Shown in pieces: positions 3 to 55,196 of a stretch of 64,000 bases of DNA. Made by a program: the position numbers and the translations under genes. The DNA is from Pseudomonadota bacterium (GTDB lineage Bacteria > Bdellovibrionota_C > UBA2361 > OMIW01). Each line of letters starts with the position of its first letter. Positions within the stretch are counted from its first letter, which is position 1. The notes beneath the pieces were generated by a model. That model had not been told where the DNA came from, did no database searches, and saw only the letters and a list, made by a program, of their open reading frames with translations. The DNA lies in the NCBI GenBank assembly GCA_900299205.1, contig OMIW01000062.1, positions 10,001-74,000 of the forward strand, read 5' to 3'.

Positions 3-1478
3 GAGCTGGTCGGCGATATGACACCCGATGACCTCACAGGAGATATCTCTTTTGCCCGGGCTCGTGACAAGTCAGACAAGTCGCTCGAGATATTTAAATT
101 TTATGTGAATGCGCTCTACGTAGGCATTACCCGTGCTCTGACGACGGTGTATGTGGTCGATGAGGTATCCTCATACCAAGAGAGAGCGGAATCACGTTCC
201 CGGAATCGTTATTCTCTTTGGGAATTGCTTCAGATTCCCGTTGCGTCCTCCGATCTCTCCCTGAGTGCTGACTCATCGACCGCAGAGGAGTGGTCGATGG
301 AGGCGCGCCGACTCGAGCTTCAGGGCAAGCTCGAACAGGCGCAAGAAATTCGGGATAAGATCCTCAAGGTGCAAAAAGTGCCGTGGAAGGTACCGACAAG
401 AGAGAGTATTAATACGATGGTCGGAGATGCAGTTGCCTATGATAGCGATCTCAACAAAAGGCGGATGATTGAGCTATTTGAAACTGCGGAGGGTCAAGGG
501 TTGACCCCCATACAGGATTTTATCAATTTAAGGGAGAACGCCCCGACTAAGAGGTGGCTGAGGGCGCGAGACCTGATGATAGAAAAGCACTACAGCCACT
601 ACACCGCCCGCGATCCGCGCCACGTCCTTGCAAATGTCACGAAATTCGGCATCGATTATCAGAATGAGTTCGGTGAGACACCCCTGATGATAGCGTCCCG
701 ACTTTTTAAGAGGGATCTCGTCAAAAAACTTCTTGAAGAAGGCGCGAATCCTCAGCTTTGCACCCATGGAGGACTTACTCCCGTCCGAGGACTCCTTCGG
801 GAGCTCATGCTACGCCACCAGACGATCAGCCGTCGTCAGGCAGACGATGCGTGGGAGATCTGGCGGCTCATCGCTGAGCCACTCCTCCTGAGCGTGGGCG
901 GACGATTGATCAAGCTCTTGCCCCATCAGGGAGAATACACCCTATTCGAGGCGATTGCATCGATGCTGGTGGGCAAATTCTGGCAAACCAAACTCCTCGG
1001 TTTGGCATACGGCATCGAATCGCGTCTTCTCTACCAAGATTATGCCTCTCTTCACCTTTCCCTGCTCCCCGAATATCGGGCTCGCAGAGACTATGTGAAT
1101 GCCCTCCTCGCCAAGAACGAGATTGAACGGGAGGGGCCAACTAATAAGCTCTTGTTTATGCGATTGCGGCGTGGCTCTTATATTCTGAACCCGCTGATTA
1201 AGACTTATCAACCAATCCACTCAGAAAACGGGTCGAACGGGGCATCTTCGGACAGTGCTGATGCAGGTGCTGCGGAGGATGAAAACTGGCGTCCAATATA
1301 CGACGTCCTTGGTGCACCCTTTATGTATAGTCATCAATCTGCGCTCAGATATCCCCTCAAATTCGAAACAGTTTTGGGCCAACATGCAGACGCGGCTCGG
1401 GAGCGGCTCTCTTTGAGGCCTGACATCAGTCCGCCCTCTCAAAATCAGGACGTCGACCCCGCGTTTCAGACCATTTAA
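3..1478 (+). CDS. UvrD/Rep-type helicase C-terminal part with ankyrin region (5' end outside window)
   Basis: The frame is open to the left edge, so the true start lies upstream; the ATG at 18 is probably internal. Near the N-terminus of the visible part, NALYVGITRA matches helicase motif VI of superfamily 1 UvrD/Rep/PcrA enzymes (YVAxTRA), which contacts ATP with its arginine. The rest (about 400 residues) is not a normal UvrD tail. It has a charged helical stretch around residues 85-115, then an ankyrin-like pair beginning at GETPLMIASR and followed by LLEEGANPQL. Inference: an ATP-dependent DNA helicase or helicase-like ATPase with a protein-binding ankyrin tail. The helicase core, Walker motifs and true length cannot be seen here. 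The gene stops 63 bases before ispG. Confidence 0.7.
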   Translation, partial: ELVGDMTPDDLTGDISFARARDKSDKSLEIFKFYVNALYVGITRALTTVYVVDEVSSYQERAESRSRNRYSLWELLQIPVASSDLSLSADSSTAEEWSMEARRLELQGKLEQAQEIRDKILKVQKVPWKVPTRESINTMVGDAVAYDSDLNKRRMIELFETAEGQGLTPIQDFINLRENAPTKRWLRARDLMIEKHYSHYTARDPRHVLANVTKFGIDYQNEFGETPLMIASRLFKRDLVKKLLEEGANPQLCTHGGLTPVRGLLRELMLRHQTISRRQADDAWEIWRLIAEPLLLSVGGRLIKLLPHQGEYTLFEAIASMLVGKFWQTKLLGLAYGIESRLLYQDYASLHLSLLPEYRARRDYVNALLAKNEIEREGPTNKLLFMRLRRGSYILNPLIKTYQPIHSENGSNGASSDSADAGAAEDENWRPIYDVLGAPFMYSHQSALRYPLKFETVLGQHADAARERLSLRPDISPPSQNQDVDPAFQTI

Positions 1479-2696: not shown

Positions 2697-2986
2697 CCGG
2701 GCGGGAGATTCGCTTCTCATCTGCTCGGGCTCCGACGGCGGAGCCTCTCAGCCCACCTTCCCATCTAAAATCGTCCCTTGCCTCCTCCTCGGGTAATTGT
2801 GCCAAATGCCCAAGTGCGATAAAGATAGATGCGGAGGTTAGTCCGTGCCGAGATGCCGTCTCTTTATTGAGGGTTCTCGTTCCCACTGCCGTCTAGTAAG
2901 TACAGGGAACTACTCTGGCTCATGGCCGGAAATCGCCGCGACATTGCGGGGTGAGAGCATCGGCGGGTTTTCTAGGAGCATCTCGC

Positions 2987-5236
2987 GTGCAGCGTCGAAT
3001 AATCACCTTAGACGAAGCCACTCCCCGACAGCGACAGGGTGCGAGTGAACTACAGGAGGGAGCCCGCGTCCCAGGCAACCTTACCCGTTTAATGCTCGGA
3101 GACGGACCGTGGGATATCCGAATCATCACCGAAGAGTCAACAGCATCAGGATCTCGGCTCTGGCTCACCCGGGCAGTTGATCCTTCCCTTGCGACTGATA
3201 CTCCGGAGTTCAACCACCTTCGGCTTCTCTTCGGATGGGCAGCAGGTCACAGTCCGGCAAACACCTCGGGCGAGTTCAAGGGACGACTTTGGTACCGTCG
3301 CCTCTATCTGCCCTCCGTCTTGGCAGATGCCCCTTTGCCGACAGACCTTCAGGGCGCCCTCACCCTCTTTCGTCAGTTAGCCGAACTGATTGAGCAGTAT
3401 CACGCAGCCTCGCTGATTCATGGACATCCCTCTCTTTCTAACGTGGCGGTGCACGCCGACGGAACCCTCGCATTGGTGGATCCAGGATTCGCCCTCATGT
3501 GTCCATCCGCGCGCATCGGTAGGGCCAGCCTTTCCCCCGACATCGGCAGTGCCGGCGCGGCAAATTCGGCAACCGACCTCTTCACCCTCGGAAAGGTCGG
3601 AAGAAAACTTTTCCCCAGACTCACCCTCCCTGATGAGCTTGCCGGCCTCCTCGAAGTGTTAGCATCTTCCGACAGCGCGCGTCGACCCTCGATTCACTGG
3701 GTCCTTGGGATCTTGCGCGATCTGAGCGCAGACCTCTCCGGTGCTCAGCCAAGTAGCAGGAGTAAAAGACCAACCCCTCGAGGCTCTCCGATGCTTCGTC
3801 CATCAGTGAGCCCCTCCTCTGAAGGAGAGCCCCCGTTCGAGCCACCACCCCCCGAGCCGTATCAATCTGCGCCGGAACTTCCGCAACCGCAACGAACCTC
3901 TACGCCGTGGATACTGATCATCCTGATCGTATTCGTAGCAGCAGCAATCATCAGTCGGATCCTTTCAACACCCAAGGGCCCCTCGATCCCCTCAGATCAC
4001 TATTGGATGAGTGGCACCCCCTCTTACATGCGGGCGGTCGCCGAGGCGGCGATAATACAGGGCGACCCAGAGGCGCGACTCGCCATTTTCGATGCGGCTC
4101 GTCAGGGATATCAGAATCCACGCGTTAATTCAGAACTTCTCAAGGTCGTTCTCGATTCTCGGTGGGAGGAGCAGCTCACTGAAGATGATCGTACCATAAT
4201 TCTCACCCTTGCAGTCGGCTCGCTCTTAGGACAGCGTCCTCAGCTCACCTTCACTGAGGATGTGCACCCCGGGGTTCTTTACGCCATCATCGCCCGTTCA
4301 CCTCTTGATGCGAGATCGCAAGAGCTTCAGCACTTTCAACCACATCAGCTCGGCACATTACCCGCGCCGATTGGGACTACGTTTACCGCCCTGCAATCTC
4401 TCGGTATTACCTCGATAGAGGATCCGGCATCAAAAGGAGCCGCTCACTTCCTCTCGGGCGATATTCGTGCCCCTGTTATTGAGGCATTCTTCGGGCCATT
4501 TGCGGATGAGGGCAGGCTCCTCGCAAAGCTTGAGCTCATCAAGGATAGCCTTTCGACCAACGAGCAGCTTCGGATAACAACTCTCGCGACTCTGATGTCT
4601 GAGAGCCCCCTGGTGCGCATGCTGATGGGTTGGTTCGATCAGGATGGACTCAATACCTGGAAAGACGTACCTCCTCCAACTCGTTTTCTCATTTCTCTCG
4701 GCGCCGTTCCAGCGGGGCTCTCCTACGAACAGCTCATCGATCTGCTCGTGTTCACCCGCCCCGGCGTGCGGGAGGCTGCAAGTCGCCAAATTCTCGAGAG
4801 CTCCTCATTTGCGGCAGTCCACGACATTCTCCCCGTTCTATCTGCACCAGAGTCGGGCCTCTCCCGAATGCAGCTCCTCTCCTTGGCAGGCGCATTGCAA
4901 ACAACGGGGCGGGATCAGCTTCTTCTCGTTCACAGCTGGCTCAAAAGCCTCCCCCCTCCCCCCTTTGTGGCGAAGCTCTTAATAGCTCGTGATGGCAAGG
5001 GCTCCAAAGATGGCTTCAATCTTGAAGCCGCGCGATATCTCCTCAAATCGAAAGAGACGCAGCTGCCACGGGAGATGATCATCGATCTCTCAACCCACTC
5101 CGAATCGATGGCCCGCGCCTACGCCTACGGCAAATTAAGTGCCGCAAATGAGGATGACCGCCGCATACTCCAAGCAGCTCTCACCACCGAAACCAGCCCC
5201 CGGCTCAAAAAACAGCTGGCACAAACCTTAAAATAG
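2987..5236 (+). CDS. Membrane-anchored Ser/Thr kinase-like protein, probable pseudokinase
   Basis: Residues up to about 265 look like a eukaryotic-type protein kinase C-lobe. The catalytic-loop equivalent reads HGHPSLSN, where active kinases have an Asp (HGDxxxxN), and the magnesium loop reads DPG instead of DFG; so two key catalytic positions are altered while the Asn is kept. A proline-rich linker follows, then one transmembrane helix (WILIILIVFVAAAII, near residue 310), then about 430 residues with HEAT-like helical character on the far side of the membrane. GTG 2987 was chosen because AGGAG lies 8 bases upstream; the longer GTG at 2951 has no ribosome site. Inference: a signalling scaffold or sensor with an inactive kinase head. 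No partner gene is adjacent. Confidence 0.72.
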   Translation: MQRRIITLDEATPRQRQGASELQEGARVPGNLTRLMLGDGPWDIRIITEESTASGSRLWLTRAVDPSLATDTPEFNHLRLLFGWAAGHSPANTSGEFKGRLWYRRLYLPSVLADAPLPTDLQGALTLFRQLAELIEQYHAASLIHGHPSLSNVAVHADGTLALVDPGFALMCPSARIGRASLSPDIGSAGAANSATDLFTLGKVGRKLFPRLTLPDELAGLLEVLASSDSARRPSIHWVLGILRDLSADLSGAQPSSRSKRPTPRGSPMLRPSVSPSSEGEPPFEPPPPEPYQSAPELPQPQRTSTPWILIILIVFVAAAIISRILSTPKGPSIPSDHYWMSGTPSYMRAVAEAAIIQGDPEARLAIFDAARQGYQNPRVNSELLKVVLDSRWEEQLTEDDRTIILTLAVGSLLGQRPQLTFTEDVHPGVLYAIIARSPLDARSQELQHFQPHQLGTLPAPIGTTFTALQSLGITSIEDPASKGAAHFLSGDIRAPVIEAFFGPFADEGRLLAKLELIKDSLSTNEQLRITTLATLMSESPLVRMLMGWFDQDGLNTWKDVPPPTRFLISLGAVPAGLSYEQLIDLLVFTRPGVREAASRQILESSSFAAVHDILPVLSAPESGLSRMQLLSLAGALQTTGRDQLLLVHSWLKSLPPPPFVAKLLIARDGKGSKDGFNLEAARYLLKSKETQLPREMIIDLSTHSESMARAYAYGKLSAANEDDRRILQAALTTETSPRLKKQLAQTLK

Positions 5237-5640: not shown

Positions 5641-8406
5641 TCAGCCCCACTCATTCCGCCGCCACTCCCCCGCCGAATCTCGGATCAGCTCGTAGCTAGG
5701 CCAGAGCTCAGGATGGGGTATGAGGGTGACCACCCGTTCGATTGAACCATTTTCGAGAAATCGAACGACGACGGGACTTGTGCCCTCTCGCTGACGAGCC
5801 ACGGCGGTAAAGGTGCTGAGATCCGGCGTAGGCTGTCCATTAAGCGAAATTATCTGACTGCCAACCTCGAGCCCGCATCGATAAGAGGGCGATCCGTAAT
5901 TTCCTGACGCAACGTACACGCCACACGCCCCCTCCCCGTGAGTTCTTCGGATCTCCGCATGAGGCGCGTGCACAACGGCTCCGGCCCAATGCACGATATG
6001 GTTGACCCCCTCTCCCGATAGGGTCTCGGGTGCAATCTCAACGGTGATTGCCGTGCCATCGCGCCATGCGATCACTGAGATATTTTCTCGCTGTACCAGC
6101 TCCTCAAGTGAACGATGATCGACGGGAATGGTACCATCAACCGATAAAATAACATCGCCTGGTTCAAGACGCCCCTCGCTTGGACCACCTGGCACGGTAC
6201 GAACGACCCGAAGCAGCTGCCGTCGGCCGCTACCTATCGCCGCGTTTATCTTCGTCAGCCATCCAGCAGGAATCTTCAGTCGGCGAAGCTCGGGCAGACG
6301 AATCGGCGCAAGCTCCGACTCGATCCACCGAAAAACCCGCTCACCCCGTCCGAGCAGTCGCAAATCTGCAAGGACAACCGCAGGAATACCGCTGTAGGTG
6401 AACTCGAACTGCTCGTCGTCCTTGTGGGCGAATATCCCCCAGAAACCCACTACGCCCCCTTCTTCATCAACGATAGCGCCATTAAAGTCAGCGTGACGGG
6501 CGTTGAGCTGAATAAGATCGAGATTTGTTTCCTGAAAGAAGGAATTGGTCGGGGCGCGAGTGGAAGCGGAGCGAATACTGGTAATCGTCGCCTTTTTGCT
6601 ATGCATCGAGCCGTACTCATTTACCCCTATGAGATGCACATCACTGCCAATCAGCGCTCCTTCCGTTACGAGCTCAGCTTCTCCAACCGCCGCATCTCCA
6701 AGAGCCGAAAGATCACACTGGAGAAGCACCACATTATGCAGCGGATGAAGATAGACTACCCGCGCAGGAACCTCCCCCCCCCCCGCAACGGTAACGGTGA
6801 TATCCCCTAATGCGTGCCACACCGTGCTGCGATCAGTTGCAATGAGCCCCCGTTCTTTGTCGATGACTATCCCCGTCCCACGAGGCGAATCATAGCGATG
6901 CCATCCCGCAATAATGTATGGTGACCGAAATTGAAGATGCACCAGGGCAGATTGAACTCGATGCCAGGGCTTAGTTCCTTGCTCGATCGGCTCCACTGGT
7001 TGAGACGAAAGGGGGATCGGCTCAAGTTGAGCAGGAAGAGGTTCACTACGCCACCGTTCGGGGTTCACCACCCGTTGTCCACCACTTTCCATCGACGCAT
7101 GTTCTCGTCTCCACCGGCGACAGGGGAACCATCGGGAAGAGAACACAGCAGACGCCTGTCGCACCGTGGTGGGCTGCTTAAAGTGCCGAAAACGCACCGA
7201 AAACGCTTCTCCTTGCCTCAGCACGCCAAAAACCGCAGCAAGATCATCGAGCGACCGAACCGCCTTGCCCGCGACTGACTCGAGCAACGCCCCTTTTTGC
7301 ATCCATTCATCAACAAGGAGGTACCCAGGGGCAGCCACCACGACCCCTTTGGGAGGTGCATTAAGATGCCACGCATGAACCGAAGAGATAGGATGAAATA
7401 TCGCTTCACCTATTTCGATGAATTCATCAGGGACGAGCGATTCAAGATCCTCAACGGGCAAATCGACAACGAGGGTCGCTCCATCACGAGCAACCACGAG
7501 CGATATGACGCCCCCTATCGAAGAATCTAGTGCCTCCTCAAAAGGCTCAAATGAATCGATCAGCTCGCCGTTTACCCGAATGATAACATCACCCACCCGA
7601 AGCGAACGGGCCGCTGCGGTGGTCGGTAAGATCCGTTCAACGACAAGCAATCCCGTTGAACGGGGAACCGCCACCATGCTCTCTGCGAGGATCGGCTGTG
7701 CGACACCACGTCGGAGAAGCTCGTCGTAAGAACGATGGGAGGCGCGCACGTGTACAGTCCCCCTCGTCACCGGCTCTCCACGCCGAAGCGCCTCGAATGC
7801 TCGAACGATCCGACGCATCGGCAGAAAATACGCAGCAGCTGCCTCTCGATGTCCCCCCGCGTTGAGACCCACGACACGACCCTCTTCATCTATGACCGGT
7901 GAACCCGATGACCCCCCCGAGGTCATCGATGCGGCCTGCATGTAAAAGGTATTCCAGTCAGAGTATTGACCCTCGCCGTAATCAGGGGCCTCGCGGTCGA
8001 GACGACTAAGGGTTCCAGAAAGGATGGAGAACCCCTCTCCCGCATCGTTACCGATAACTCGGATTTCGACCCCCTCGACCGCCCCCTCTGGGTACAGGGA
8101 AAGGCTTCGCGGGACAGATCCCCGAAGGCGAGCCGGGTCGTAGCAAAAAAAACCAAAATCATGGATCGGATCTCGGTAGAGGGGCATCAGTTCGACCTCG
8201 CGCAAGTCTGCGAATATGCCCCGTGCGACCACAGGACCAGCCGTCACGACATGGCGATTAGTGAGCACGATCCCCCGCTCCGCATCGACAACAAAGCCCG
8301 TCGCTTGACCAGAGTTTTGCCAATCATCCTCGAAAGCGCGCGATTGATCGACCATGATTGCAAGAATGGATCCCTTGGTTTCCTCTATTGTCCTTTTCCA
8401 CGACAT
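5641..8406 (-). CDS. Tandem HtrA/Deg-type serine protease with PDZ domains, Nma111/Deg7-like
   Basis: The 921-residue protein holds two trypsin-like/PDZ modules. Module 1 keeps a full triad: His in TNRHVV (about residue 52), Asp in RDPIHDFGFF (about 83), Ser in SGGSSGSPV (about 167), followed by a PDZ segment (GLLVVERILPTTAA to VGDVIIRVNG). Module 2 (from about residue 500) is degenerate: the His region reads ATDRSTVWH and the Ser region reads DFNGAIVDEEG, so it is proteolytically dead; further PDZ-like segments follow at the C-terminus. This order, and phrases such as ATGFVVD, NRHVV, IYRDPxHDFGF-like and GNDAGE, closely parallel yeast Nma111 and plant Deg7. There is no signal peptide, so a cytoplasmic location is likely, unlike bacterial DegP. 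It is the only gene between the tRNA and uvrB. Confidence 0.85.
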   Translation of the reverse strand: MSWKRTIEETKGSILAIMVDQSRAFEDDWQNSGQATGFVVDAERGIVLTNRHVVTAGPVVARGIFADLREVELMPLYRDPIHDFGFFCYDPARLRGSVPRSLSLYPEGAVEGVEIRVIGNDAGEGFSILSGTLSRLDREAPDYGEGQYSDWNTFYMQAASMTSGGSSGSPVIDEEGRVVGLNAGGHREAAAAYFLPMRRIVRAFEALRRGEPVTRGTVHVRASHRSYDELLRRGVAQPILAESMVAVPRSTGLLVVERILPTTAAARSLRVGDVIIRVNGELIDSFEPFEEALDSSIGGVISLVVARDGATLVVDLPVEDLESLVPDEFIEIGEAIFHPISSVHAWHLNAPPKGVVVAAPGYLLVDEWMQKGALLESVAGKAVRSLDDLAAVFGVLRQGEAFSVRFRHFKQPTTVRQASAVFSSRWFPCRRWRREHASMESGGQRVVNPERWRSEPLPAQLEPIPLSSQPVEPIEQGTKPWHRVQSALVHLQFRSPYIIAGWHRYDSPRGTGIVIDKERGLIATDRSTVWHALGDITVTVAGGGEVPARVVYLHPLHNVVLLQCDLSALGDAAVGEAELVTEGALIGSDVHLIGVNEYGSMHSKKATITSIRSASTRAPTNSFFQETNLDLIQLNARHADFNGAIVDEEGGVVGFWGIFAHKDDEQFEFTYSGIPAVVLADLRLLGRGERVFRWIESELAPIRLPELRRLKIPAGWLTKINAAIGSGRRQLLRVVRTVPGGPSEGRLEPGDVILSVDGTIPVDHRSLEELVQRENISVIAWRDGTAITVEIAPETLSGEGVNHIVHWAGAVVHAPHAEIRRTHGEGACGVYVASGNYGSPSYRCGLEVGSQIISLNGQPTPDLSTFTAVARQREGTSPVVVRFLENGSIERVVTLIPHPELWPSYELIRDSAGEWRRNEWG

Positions 8407-8519
8407 GATGACTGCCTTAAACTTAATCAGCGGTACTTATTTCAGAGAGCGCTTCGGACCACGGAGGGTCTAGAAAACTCCGTCAGGCCTTCGAAACTAA
8501 ACACCAGCATCACACCCTA

Positions 8520-10628
8520 TCAAACGAGCAAGGCCCGCTGAATGCGCGTTATCTTATCACGAAGCTCGGCAGCACGCTCATACTCTCTCTTTCCTGCCGC
8601 TTCGAGCATCTCTTTTCTGAGCCCCTCCACCACTTTCTGCTGAGCCTGAGGATCTGCGGGGGGTGGCTCATCGAGCGTCACGATCTCTCCCGTCTCAGGG
8701 TCGATCAGCTCCTCAATCACCGTGGTGAGGGCCCCCTCAAGCCCCCGCCGCGCGGATTGCGGCACGATGCCGTGCTCCGCGTTATACGCCGCCTGAATTG
8801 TTCGTCTCCGCTCCGTTTCCCGAATTGCTCCCTTAATTGAATCGGTCTCCCGATCAGCGTACATGATCACCCGACCATGCACGTTTCTCGCTGCTCGTCC
8901 CATCGTTTGTATCAGGGACCGTTCGGAGCGAAGAAATCCCTCTTTATCTGCGTCGAGTATCGCGACAAGTTGAACTTCGACGAGATCAAGCCCTTCCCGC
9001 AGCAGATTGATCCCAACAAGGACATCAAAATCCCCCCGGCGCAGCCCCCGCAAAATCTCCACCCGCTCTACCGTATTTATATCGGCGTGCAGATAGCGAG
9101 AGCGGATCCCAACTCCCTGGAGGTACGTGGTGAGATCTTCAGCCATACGCTTGGTGAGAGTGGTGACAAGCACCCGCCCCCCGCGATCGACAACCTCTCG
9201 CGCCTCATTGAGGAGATCATCGACCTGATGAAGAGCTGGTCGCACAGAGACTTCTGGATCAAGCAACCCAGTCGGACGATTTATCTGCTCGACAACATGC
9301 GCTCCACTCTCCGACAGCTCAAAATCCGCTGGTGTCGCCGAGACAAAGACCACCTGACCAACCCGCTCCCAGAACTCTTCACCACTAAGAGGCCGATTAT
9401 CAAGCGCGGACGGGAGTCGAAAGCCGTAATCCACGAGGGTTTGCTTTCGCGCCCTATCGCCCCGATACATAGCACCAATCTGTGGCACCGTAACGTGGCT
9501 TTCATCGATAAAGAGGAGAAATCCTTTTGGAAAATAATCAAGAAGAGTCGATGGTGGAGTGCCCGGCTGTCGTTGATCGAGATGTCTGGAATAGTTCTCA
9601 ATCCCTGGGCAAAAACCTATCTCAAAGAGCAGCTCAAGATCATACAGCGTCCGCTGTTCGAGCCGTTGAGCCTCAAAATCCTTCCCCCCACTTCGCAGCT
9701 CCGCCAGTCGTATATCCAATTCCGCCCTGATGCTCTCAGCAGCCGCTATCACTTTCTCTCGAGCAGTGACAAAGTGACTGACCGGATAGACCGCGGTGCT
9801 CGCAAGCTTGCGGAGAACGACCCCCGATATACCATCAATCTGAGCAATCTCTTCGAGTTGATCTCCAAAAAAAATCAGTCGTATCGCGTGAGCGTCCTGA
9901 TCAGAGGGAAAGACATCTATCGTCTCCCCTCGAACCCGGAAAGTTCCCCGATAAAAATCATTATCAGAACGAACATACTGCATCTGGACGAGCTTCCTGA
10001 GCAGTTCCTTTCGGTTGATCCATTCCCCTTGCTCGAGGTAAAGCATCGCTTTAAAGTATTCTTCTGGGGCTCCGAGACCATATATGCAGCTCACACTCGC
10101 GACGATAATCACATCGGTGGACTCGAGCAACGCCTTGGTTGCCGCGTGCCGCATCTTATCAATCTCTTCATTAATAGCGCTGTCTTTCTCAATATAGGTA
10201 TCGGTCGATGGGATGTAAGCTTCGGGCTGGTAGTAGTCGTAGTAGCTCACGAAGTAGCGCACCTGATTATTCGGAAAGAACTCTCGAAACTCAGCGTAAA
10301 GCTGTGCTGCCAACGTTTTGTTCGGCGCGATAATCAGAGCAGGACGGGCTTGTTCACGGATGACATTCGCCATCGTAAAGGTTTTACCCGAACCGGTGAT
10401 GCCCCGTAATGTCTGGAACCGCACCCCAGCCGAAAGATCATCCGAGATCCGGCGAATCGCCTGCGGTTGATCTCCGCGAGGGGTATATGATGATTCCAGG
10501 AGAAAGGCCTCTTGGCGACGAACCGGAAGGGTAAACCCACCGTCTGTCAGTACTCGAGCATTACAATCGAACTGATTTGAAGGAAGGTGCTGACTAGAAC
10601 AGGTCGTTGAAGATGACTTTTTTTTCAC
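8520..10628 (-). CDS. uvrB: Excinuclease ABC subunit B
   Basis: UvrB is the damage-verifying helicase-like subunit of nucleotide excision repair, working with UvrA and UvrC. Visible features are the Walker [10 protein letters not shown] near residue 80, the damage-probing beta-hairpin around [12 protein letters not shown], the DEAD-type FLLFIDESH, the helicase C-terminal domain ([11 protein letters not shown] and QTMGRAARN), and the C-terminal UVR domain that binds UvrC. The 702-residue length is about 30 longer than usual because of a low-complexity N-terminus. The start is GTG at 10628, the only reasonable start codon before the conserved part; no good ribosome site lies in front of it. No uvrA or uvrC is in the window. 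Confidence 0.96.
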
Positions 10629-36229: not shown

Positions 36230-37228
36230 TTACTTTTTTATAATTCCTTCAGCAACATGATTCGGAACTGGCGCATAGTGATGGTATTCCATCGTAAAAG
36301 TGGCCCTACCTTGAGAACTTGACCGAAGATCGGTAGAGTAGCCAAACATTTCGGCCAACGGAACCTCTGCCTTGATAGCCTGCGCTCCTGAACGTGGCTC
36401 CATACCCAGAATCCGTGAGCGGCGCCGGTTTATATCCCCAACGATATTACTTACAAAGTCATCCGGACACACGACCTCTACTGACATAATTGGTTCAAGA
36501 AGCTGTGGCCCTGCCTTTCGACAAGCCTCCTTCACACACATCGAACCAGCTATCTTGAAAGCAATTTCGCTGGAGTCAACTTCATGGAAGCTACCAAAAT
36601 AGAGGACGACTTTGGTATCAATCACCGGGAAACCAGCCAATATCCCACCGCCGAGCGCTTCCTTAACACCCTTTTCAACAGCGGGAATGAATTCCTTCGG
36701 AATCACCCCTCCCTTTATCTCATCATGGAATTCGTTCCCCTTTCCAGCTTCAAGAGGACTAACCCTAAGGAATACATGGCCGAACTGCCCCTTACCGCCA
36801 GACTGTTTTGCATACTTAACTTCGTGCTCAACTTCTCGCGTTATTGTCTCCCGGTATGCTACTTGTGGCTTCCCTGCCTTAGTCTCAACCCCATACTCCC
36901 GGAATAGTCGCTGTTGAATGATATCAAGGTGTAATTCTCCCATCCCAGCGATAATCGTTTGGCCGGATTCCTCGTCCGTAAAAACCTTGAGCGACGGATC
37001 TTCTTTTGAGAGTTTCATCAAAGACAGACCCATTTTCTCCTCATCGGCCTTTGTTTTTGGCTCGATAGCTATGCTAATCACCGGGTCCGGCGCATGTATT
37101 GATTCAAGGAGTATTGGCGAACCTTCATCCGATAAAGTATCCCCTGTATAGGTTTCCTTAAGACCAACGGCTGCTCCAATATCTCCAGCCGAGAGTTCCT
37201 TAACCTCTTCTCTCTTGTCTGCATGCAT
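36230..37228 (-). CDS. fusA: Elongation factor G, C-terminal part (frameshifted gene)
   Basis: Domains III to V of EF-G in one frame: [22 protein letters not shown] (domain III), [19 protein letters not shown] (domain IV start), and the C-terminal [24 protein letters not shown]-like tail. The first in-frame ATG is 37228, but the homologous sequence continues upstream to about 37250 ([18 protein letters not shown]), directly behind the stop of the N-terminal ORF. Together the two parts make a normal EF-G of about 700 residues, so this is one gene with a frame change between positions 37251 and 37260. Confidence 0.9.
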
Positions 37229-37256
37229 TTTAACGATTCGACCGATACGCTCCCGC

Positions 37257-38336
37257 TTACCTGCGCGTATTCAAAACAGAAGTCCCTGCCGCAATGGTAC
37301 CTGAGTAAACGCGAAAGAACGTAAGACCTCCAACATATGGATCGCTTACTATCTTGAAAGCAAGCGCAGAAAAGGGCTCTGCTGCGTCTGCCTCTCTTAC
37401 TAGCTTTTCTACAAGCTCGGCTGGCTTATTCGCATCATCCGGAGATATACCCTGAACGGCAGGAATATCAAGCGGAGATGGGAGGTAATCAATAACAGCA
37501 TCAAGGAGCGGTTGTACGCCTTTATTCTTGAAAGCACTCCCACACAGAATTGGGAATATCTCCATGGCTAGAGTTCCCGTACGTAGGGCGGACATAATTT
37601 CAGACGCTGAAACCTCTCCCCCAGCCAGGTATTTTTCCATAATGGAATCATCCAGGTCGGCAACGGCCTCTACAAGCCGTTCTCGAGCCTTCATTGCCTG
37701 GTCCTTCAAATCAGAGGGAACATCTCGAATCTCAAACCGTGCCCCCTTAGTCTCTTCGAGATAAACGACTGCCTTCATGGTGAGCAGATCGATTACTCCT
37801 AGAAATTCAGATTCTGCTCCAATTGGAATCTGTATTGGGACGGCATTAGCGCCTAAGCGCTCTTTTATCGCCTGGACGCACTTCTCAAAGTTGGCGCCCA
37901 TCCGATCCATTTTATTCACAAAGCAAAAACGCGGGACCCGGAACTTGTTCGCTTGACGCCACACAGTCTCCGACTGGGGTTCGACGCCACTCACTCCATC
38001 AAATACAGCCACGGCGCCATCTAGAACGCGCAAACTTCTCTCGACTTCGATTGTGAAATCTACATGACCAGGGGTGTCGATAATATTTATGCGATGGGTT
38101 GGCTTATCCCCAAGCGACCCCGACCACTCGCAAGTAGTGGCAGCGGAGGTAATAGTAATCCCTCTCTCCTGCTCGAGCTCCATGTAATCCATGGTCGCTC
38201 CCCCTTCATGAACTTCCCCTATCTTGTAGTTCTTGCCAGTATAATAGAGAATGCGCTCTGTCGTAGTTGTTTTACCAGCATCAATATGAGCCATGATGCC
38301 TATATTTCGAGTTTTTGATAAATCAATTTTGGCCAC
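37257..38336 (-). CDS. fusA: Elongation factor G, N-terminal part (frameshifted gene)
   Basis: The GTPase domain and most of domain II: P-loop [48 protein letters not shown] and [14 protein letters not shown]. The frame ends ...SVLNTRR then TAA at 37257, where the family continues with a Gly-Lys-Arg-Glu-Arg type turn; that text resumes one base later in the next frame. A loss of two G residues in an AGGGGTAAG-like run would explain it. EF-G drives translocation, so either the sequence has an error here, or a second fusA exists, or ribosomes shift frame. Confidence 0.92.
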
Positions 38337-53495: not shown

Positions 53496-55172
53496 TCATA
53501 TCCAGTACTTTTGAAAATCTGGGCCCTGCGATTCGGGACTTTCCCAAGGTGCTTGTATTCTTATCCTTGTTGGCATCGGAAAATCGACGCCCAAAAGTAT
53601 TGCCTCGCCAGTTCGAAGACATGGAACTCCAGATGCAACCATCCCATGAAGCCCTCCCGCAGCTCGCTCGACAATCGATAAGTCGTGATGATTGACTAGT
53701 CGATGTATAATCATGGTGCCCATCTGACTCAGGATGTCCTCAGGAATATCGCGGGGCCTTTGAGTCACTAGACACATGGTTAGTCCGTATTTTCTCCCCT
53801 CCTTCGCCAATAACGCGAAAGAATCCAATCGATTATCTTTACTGTCTGGAATCAATGTATTGTTGAGAAACTGATGGGCCTCATCGACGATGGCGAGGAG
53901 TGGCTTTTTTCTGAAAACGTCGAGGCGAGCAGCTTCCATTAGATAACGTCCGATTGCATTTGCGACGATCTCACGCGCGTGGTGCGCGAAGGAAAGATAC
54001 TGAAGATTGATTCTTAACACCGATTCATCTTCAGCTTGCAGAAAATTTAGTATCTCGTCGAATAGCGCGGGCTCATCTCTCGGGGAGAAGATAGGGTTGA
54101 GACTCGGAAGGCGAATCACATCCTGAATTCTGTTAATTAAGGCGACACAATGGGAATAATCGACCGCATTCTGCCCCCCCCAATACATCGGCTCGCTCGG
54201 ACTTTGCTGAGCATCAACACATTCATTCTGGATTTGGGCACACAGGACTCTAATGTCAAATAAGGCGCGAGGATCCTCCAGCTCTTGCGCATAGTCACTC
54301 CGTGCCGCAAAGAAATCTTTCTTCGAACGATGTGCCTTTAAAATCATCCCATTGGGGGCCAGGCCCGGTTCAAGCCGAGCAAGTCGCAAACTCTCTATCG
54401 CAGCCCGAAGCTTGGCAGCCTGACTTTGTCCTACGGGTTGGAAGATAGCGAAGAGATCGCTTTCATTGAGATCCGAGTATGGAATCGATACGGGAACAGC
54501 ATAAGGGGGGGCGTAAGGATCATCTCCGATATACACATGACGGGCCCCTTGCCTCAATGGACGAAATTCACCCGTTGCATCGAATAAAATTACCTTTGAG
54601 CGAAATTTCGCACACTCCGAGACGATTCGTCCCAAAGTCCAGCTCTTTCCCGACCCCGAAGCTCCGACAACCGCCAGATGGCGTCCAAAAAGATGCTCGG
54701 GGATGAATGACAAGCTAACCGACTCGTCGTGAGGCAAGGTTGCCAGATTAATTGCAACGTTTGTCGACAAAACTTCCCTCGACTGAGTGACTTTTTTTGC
54801 AAGATTCACATCCGCTGCCAAAACTGGGCTCCCGACCAGTGGCGGTCGACTCACGCCCGGTTCGACCCGACCTGAGCCTTTTTGGATGGTTGCAACCAAA
54901 TCACCCCTCGCCGTTGATCCCTCGATAGCGGACTGAACCGATGAAATGGTTCCTATTATGGTCCCAGAGTCGATTTCTATCGCGAAGAAAGCCCCCGCAA
55001 AGAGACCCGATTGTTCGATTGCATCAGGTTCAGCATGAATCACAACCGAATTGATTCTAACGTCGGTGACGAATCCCAGCCTTTTGCTGATTGAAGGCGG
55101 TTTTGGCGGTTCGAGCGGGGTGTTCAACCTCTTCTCGGATCCCCTATCTCTCCTGAATCGGTTTTTTGGCAT
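53496..55172 (-). CDS. HerA-type hexameric ATPase/translocase
   Basis: 558 residues. The N-terminal about 130 residues fit the HAS-barrel of HerA. The Walker A is VVGASGSGKSWT (about residue 170), Walker B LLAIVDEAHQFL (about 425), followed by KEGRKYGLTMCLVTQRPRDIP and the sensor-like MGTMIIHRLVNHHDLSIVERA, the HerA/FtsK-like order. HerA proteins pump DNA and usually work with a nuclease (NurA) or, in defence loci, SIR2 or DUF4297 proteins; no such partner is next to this gene. ATG 55172 follows GGGGAGAG closely; TTG 55196 is an alternative. It stands alone among tRNA genes. Confidence 0.88.
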   Translation of the reverse strand: MPKNRFRRDRGSEKRLNTPLEPPKPPSISKRLGFVTDVRINSVVIHAEPDAIEQSGLFAGAFFAIEIDSGTIIGTISSVQSAIEGSTARGDLVATIQKGSGRVEPGVSRPPLVGSPVLAADVNLAKKVTQSREVLSTNVAINLATLPHDESVSLSFIPEHLFGRHLAVVGASGSGKSWTLGRIVSECAKFRSKVILFDATGEFRPLRQGARHVYIGDDPYAPPYAVPVSIPYSDLNESDLFAIFQPVGQSQAAKLRAAIESLRLARLEPGLAPNGMILKAHRSKKDFFAARSDYAQELEDPRALFDIRVLCAQIQNECVDAQQSPSEPMYWGGQNAVDYSHCVALINRIQDVIRLPSLNPIFSPRDEPALFDEILNFLQAEDESVLRINLQYLSFAHHAREIVANAIGRYLMEAARLDVFRKKPLLAIVDEAHQFLNNTLIPDSKDNRLDSFALLAKEGRKYGLTMCLVTQRPRDIPEDILSQMGTMIIHRLVNHHDLSIVERAAGGLHGMVASGVPCLRTGEAILLGVDFPMPTRIRIQAPWESPESQGPDFQKYWI

Positions 55173-55196
55173 CTCTCTCCCCGACCTAAAATTCAA

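Follow-up and report, generated by a model that had tools for sequence, protein, structure and literature searches.

A tandem HtrA protease of the Nma111/Deg7 type without a signal peptide, encoded in a bacterium outside the Gammaproteobacteria

The origin of the Nma111/Deg7 proteases, which carry two HtrA modules in tandem, is usually told from the eukaryotes. A gene of this type in a 64,000-nucleotide stretch of bacterial DNA (the window) raises the question of where it came from and in which compartment its product works. An initial annotation had described the product as a cytoplasmic-looking protein with an active trypsin-PDZ module followed by a dead one, and had proposed that it represents either the bacterial relatives from which the eukaryotic family came, or a transfer.

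The open reading frame (positions 5641–8406, minus strand, as are all features within it) is complete, starts with ATG and encodes 921 residues in the order protease-PDZ-PDZ-dead protease-PDZ-PDZ. Pfam searches identified two Trypsin_2 domains, PDZ domains in each half, and PF12812 (PDZ_1) twice, all above cut-off. An alignment of one half against the other also extends over 394 residues (25% identity, E = 6e-13) and, since both carry the Pfam domains, the tandem is real. The protease domain of module 1 (Trypsin_2, PF13365, residues 35–181; 7864–8304) has a predicted fold like that of DegP, DegQ and DegS. By alignment its triad is intact, consisting of His52 (8251–8253), which aligns with the histidine of all other module 1 domains and of single-module HtrA proteins, Asp83 (8158–8160) and Ser167 (7906–7908, within GGSSGSP), and these residues are invariant in the tandem family. 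PDZ domain 1 (residues ≈252–317; 7456–7653; PDZ_6/PDZ_2) is followed by PDZ domain 2 of the PF12812 type (7225–7437; 34.3 bits, above the family cut-off). In the degenerate protease domain of module 2 (residues 510–654; 6445–6879; Trypsin_2, 3e-7), the alignment places Ser527 (6826–6828), Asn558 (6733–6735) and Phe641 (6484–6486) at the positions of the catalytic His, Asp and Ser, respectively. Among the 16 module 2 sequences compared, the His and Ser positions were kept in none and the Asp position in two. PDZ domain 3 (residues ≈730–793; 6028–6219) was assigned from Pfam and the secondary structure of the model, and PDZ domain 4 (5794–6000; 38.4 bits) is again of the PF12812 type.

A structure model was built from 54 sequences (the window protein and the fetched homolog loci), and the predicted structure of the window protein had a mean pLDDT of 81.9. 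Residues 1–421 match the structures of DegP, DegQ and DegS, and residues 474–896 match the HtrA structures of H. pylori and M. tuberculosis, in both cases with Z ≈22–24. The second module, for which the initial annotation had proposed a structure prediction, is thus predicted to have the HtrA fold, and the sequence of an active and a dead module was borne out by the triads, the Pfam matches and the self-alignment. The motifs by which the protein had been likened to Nma111 and Deg7 (ATGFVVD, NRHVV, YRDPIHDFGF, GNDAGE and GGSSGSP) are present and near-invariant across the tandem family.

Assignment to the Nma111/Deg7 type also held, from the six-domain order, the two PF12812 domains and the module tree described below. 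Like these Deg clade III proteases, the window protein combines an active and a degenerate module, has four PDZ domains in two tandems with PF12812 second in each, has modules that group with their counterparts rather than with single HtrA proteins (in trees with approximate eukaryotic rows) and, as judged from its sequence, is not exported. Arabidopsis Deg7 is organized as PD-PDZ-PDZ-inactive PD-PDZ-PDZ, the inactive domain serving trimerisation (PMC3473262), and its location is uncertain, with stroma, cytosol, nucleus or mitochondrion reported (PMC4130198). It shares architecture and non-secretion with the window protein (≈36–39% identity to an approximate sequence), but has a longer linker between the modules and belongs to a different host domain, and trimerisation has been reported for Deg7 only. 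The fungal branch carries a PDZ1 domain, and some bacterial proteins are more closely related to the yeast one than to human HtrA (PMC5982838). Yeast Nma111/Ynm3 is of the same tandem type, with PF12812 and no export signal (≈31% identity to an approximate sequence). Nma111 differs from the window protein in being nuclear, in its N-terminal extension and in its tie to cell death through Bir1, of which we know no bacterial counterpart.

Among bacterial proteins, DegP, DegQ and DegS share the fold of the individual modules (Z up to ≈24) and the catalytic triad, but they are single-module, exported and form a separate clade in the module tree. Against the DegP/DegQ model of the Do family (TIGR02037; NCBIfam degP_htrA_DO), the window protein, which is tandem and signal-less, scored 110.8 bits versus a cut-off of 416.2. 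Much closer are tandem HtrA proteins of Steroidobacteraceae, Woeseiaceae, Chromatiales and other Gammaproteobacteria (loci L047, L051 and L053, for example), which have the same six domains, the same triad and a module 2 dead at all three positions, with 38–42% identity over the whole length. They differ in having a Sec-type or lipoprotein signal and a cysteine pair, both of which the window protein lacks, and many are encoded beside gcvT-gcvH-gcvP, whereas the window gene follows uvrB.

The window protein has no signal peptide and begins at the protease domain itself. Ten codons before the ATG there is an in-frame TAA, and none of the frames of the 113-bp gap that separates the start codon from the uvrB stop (8407–8519, minus strand) codes for a signal. 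The gammaproteobacterial homologs start 25–100 residues ahead of the protease domain. In 67 of the 80 best homologs, the residues directly before the domain include a hydrophobic core that exceeds a fixed cut-off, mostly with an AxA-like site after it, and the N-termini of a further 19 homolog loci (18 distinct, L156 and L128 being the same gene) looked signal-like or lipoprotein-like by eye. (L128 and L142, gammaproteobacterial members from one family, have a lipoprotein signal rather than the cleaved soluble type, and these two proteins may be anchored to the membrane.) All 99 bacterial homologs have a cysteine pair where the window protein has W432 and S454, within a predicted β-hairpin (residues 429–456; 7039–7122), and 91 of the 99 have no cysteine beyond the pair in the mature part. 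The pair is missing from the window protein, which has an insertion in the turn of the hairpin and cysteines at 88, 429, 564, 828 and 844 instead. The gammaproteobacterial proteins look periplasmic, with a disulfide-like pair. The two ordinary HtrA proteins of the window's genome have N-terminal hydrophobic segments.

Because the absence of a signal and the loss of the pair, together with five scattered cysteines, are independent pointers, the window protein is probably cytoplasmic. Its cytoplasmic look is therefore supported, and the hidden export signal that the initial annotation had named as a possible refutation was sought in all frames of the gap and is absent. We also considered whether the protein might nevertheless be exported, either because its true start lies farther upstream, because an assembly error has removed the signal, or by a non-classical pathway. 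Every other bacterial member found is exported or looks so, and in the draft assembly (206 contigs) the frame of at least one essential gene, fusA, is broken. However, no frame of the upstream gap could supply a signal, and the cysteine content points independently to a reducing compartment, making export quite improbable. The fusA gene (EF-G; 36230–38336, minus strand) is divided into two open reading frames (37257–38336 and 36230–37228). The frame is interrupted between domains II and III, which in an essential gene is probably an assembly error.

The spread of the family was determined by a scan covering a single genome for each species. The conserved peptides used came from an alignment with approximate Nma111 and Deg7 sequences, and matches were confirmed against the window protein. 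At least 484 loci encode a relative. The best 80 of these cover the full length at 38–42% identity and are all from Pseudomonadota; where a class is stated, nearly all are Gammaproteobacteria, and three are metagenome-assembled genomes labelled Rhodospirillaceae. About 99 full-length bacterial homologs were compared (29–42% identity), essentially all of them gammaproteobacterial. (Loci L157–L162 form a deep, divergent gammaproteobacterial subgroup, with a clade support of 100/100.) An even draw of gammaproteobacterial genomes had the gene in 18 of 274. No other member was found in 45 genomes of the window's own phylum, its class likewise being without the family, nor in three other sampled phyla. 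Some 340 genomes spread over the bacteria yielded a single match (G326), which sits at the same place as in a genome of the gammaproteobacterial draw. Outside the Gammaproteobacteria, the several hundred genomes sampled, in draws that partly overlap, thus had no member, which leaves room for rare members elsewhere. Viral contigs had no homolog, plasmids carried single-module HtrA only, and the genomes sampled included no relative close enough to show when the signal was lost or to gauge selection.

This distribution bears on vertical inheritance, by which an old bacterial tandem family would have been lost nearly everywhere except in the Gammaproteobacteria and this organism. The long branch of the window protein and the attachment of its module 2 outside the other module 2 sequences (support 80) are consistent with such a history. 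However, neither the 45 genomes of the phylum nor the several hundred other non-gammaproteobacterial genomes have another member, and in the rooted module 1 tree, gammaproteobacterial sequences branch more deeply than the window protein (95/92). We consider vertical inheritance improbable.

The eukaryotic rows in all trees are two approximate sequences, Nma111 and Deg7, not taken from a database, in which single residues are unreliable. Both align over the full length and are closer to the gammaproteobacterial proteins than to the window protein. Contamination of these rows by the window protein is thus unlikely, since they were set down after the window protein was known but before the gammaproteobacterial proteins were. 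With these rows included, a tree of the separate modules resolved module 1, module 2 and the single HtrA proteins as three clades (SH-aLRT 99, 100 and 99), and the modules of the window protein fell in the first two. The initial annotation had named a placement of the modules among ordinary DegP proteins as grounds for rejection; they group with the tandem family instead. The same result refutes a recent duplication of an ordinary DegP-like protein in this lineage, with a merely convergent likeness to Nma111/Deg7: both modules have HtrA folds and the genome has two ordinary HtrA genes, but the separation of the three clades leaves this reading next to no chance.

The window protein grouped with the main gammaproteobacterial cluster both in the full-length tree (93/96) and in the module tree (85). 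Its branch is long, however (2.36 changes per column in the full-length tree), so that its exact position is unsure. When the module 1 tree was rooted on the single HtrA proteins, the deepest branches were gammaproteobacterial, and the window protein was nested further in, as were the eukaryotic rows (95/92 and 93/94). Because the best trees nest the window protein within gammaproteobacterial diversity, transfer from Gammaproteobacteria into this lineage is favoured, although not proved. Of the two origins offered by the initial annotation, transfer thus gained ground, whereas the view of this protein as a scarce bacterial representative of the eukaryotic family's forebears was not supported as worded, as the type is widespread and exported in Gammaproteobacteria. 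The spread in related bacteria, also raised there, gave the same picture of a family common in Gammaproteobacteria and otherwise missing from the window's phylum.

Could the window protein and eukaryotic Nma111/Deg7 instead share one non-exported ancestor, with the common traits inherited, either because the gene reached this bacterium from a eukaryote or because the bacterium's own lineage stands near the bacterial donor? Both lack the signal and the cysteine pair (the eukaryotic sequences being approximate), and there was no clear rejection in AU tests that forced the window protein together with the eukaryotic rows (p = 0.054 at full length and 0.27 for module 1) or with Deg7 alone (p = 0.36). 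However, the best trees place it with the main gammaproteobacterial cluster, and its identity is higher to gammaproteobacterial proteins (41%) than to Deg7 (36–39%) or Nma111 (31%). No shared insertion was seen by eye, and the comparison depends on approximate eukaryotic sequences not taken from a database. A move to the cytosol would account for losing both the signal and the disulfide, which makes convergence with the eukaryotes easy. We regard a joint ancestor as unlikely. Slightly more doubtful still is the reading in which the window protein lies on the same non-exported branch as the eukaryotic proteins, bacteria already had a cytoplasmic tandem HtrA ahead of the eukaryotes or exchanged one with them, and this lineage keeps the bacterial side.

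The contig itself is native to the genome. The uvrB gene (8520–10628, minus strand), only 113 bp upstream, is 63–70% identical to that of its own order and 47–61% identical to that of genomes from other phyla, ruling out a misbinned contig. The G+C content of the tandem HtrA gene (57%) is only slightly above that of its neighbours (50–57%), which counts against the transfer reading. Sequence scanning of the gap revealed neither a sigma-70-like promoter nor a terminator-like site, and since the latter is missing, co-transcription with uvrB is possible. No conserved neighbourhood was found within 1.5 kb of uvrB in the window's order.

We therefore favour, with a probability of about 0.6, horizontal acquisition of the tandem HtrA gene, the donor most likely belonging to the gammaproteobacterial radiation, after which the protein would have turned cytoplasmic as a chaperone-protease with module 2 as its scaffold. 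By analogy with HtrA and Deg7, the PDZ domains would capture damaged proteins by their exposed hydrophobic or C-terminal segments, and module 1, acting as an ATP-independent serine protease, would cut the bound proteins through H52, D83 and S167. The dead module 2 may join three subunits, as reported for plant Deg7. An ATP-independent chaperone-protease of this kind would serve in protein quality control in the cytoplasm.

The tandem type itself is known, and the novelty is a stray copy outside the Gammaproteobacteria without signal or cysteine pair. Among the papers searched, none names Nma111 together with Gammaproteobacteria, where the analysis brought out a large family with exactly this six-domain plan. 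The approximate eukaryotic sequences and this bacterial stray both lack the signal and the pair, unlike the gammaproteobacterial members, and they offer a concrete, testable case of a periplasmic chaperone-protease being relocated to a reducing compartment, possibly on several occasions.

An anti-phage role was considered and rejected, as PADLOC gave only weak protease-domain matches. Elsewhere in the window, a 761-residue reading frame (2951–5236, plus strand) resembles kinases weakly in one stretch (LanL/Bud32 profiles, E ≈1e-3) and has one hydrophobic segment, with no Pfam match. A 486-residue frame (18–1478, plus strand) adjoins gcpE/ispG and has one sub-threshold ankyrin repeat match, and a HerA-like helicase (DUF87; 53496–55196, minus strand) lies among tRNA genes near 53–56 kb. 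At the 80 gammaproteobacterial loci L047–L126, the tandem HtrA gene often follows gcvT, gcvH and gcvP on the same strand (up to 54 of the 80), and in 18 it is itself followed by a Sua5-like gene.
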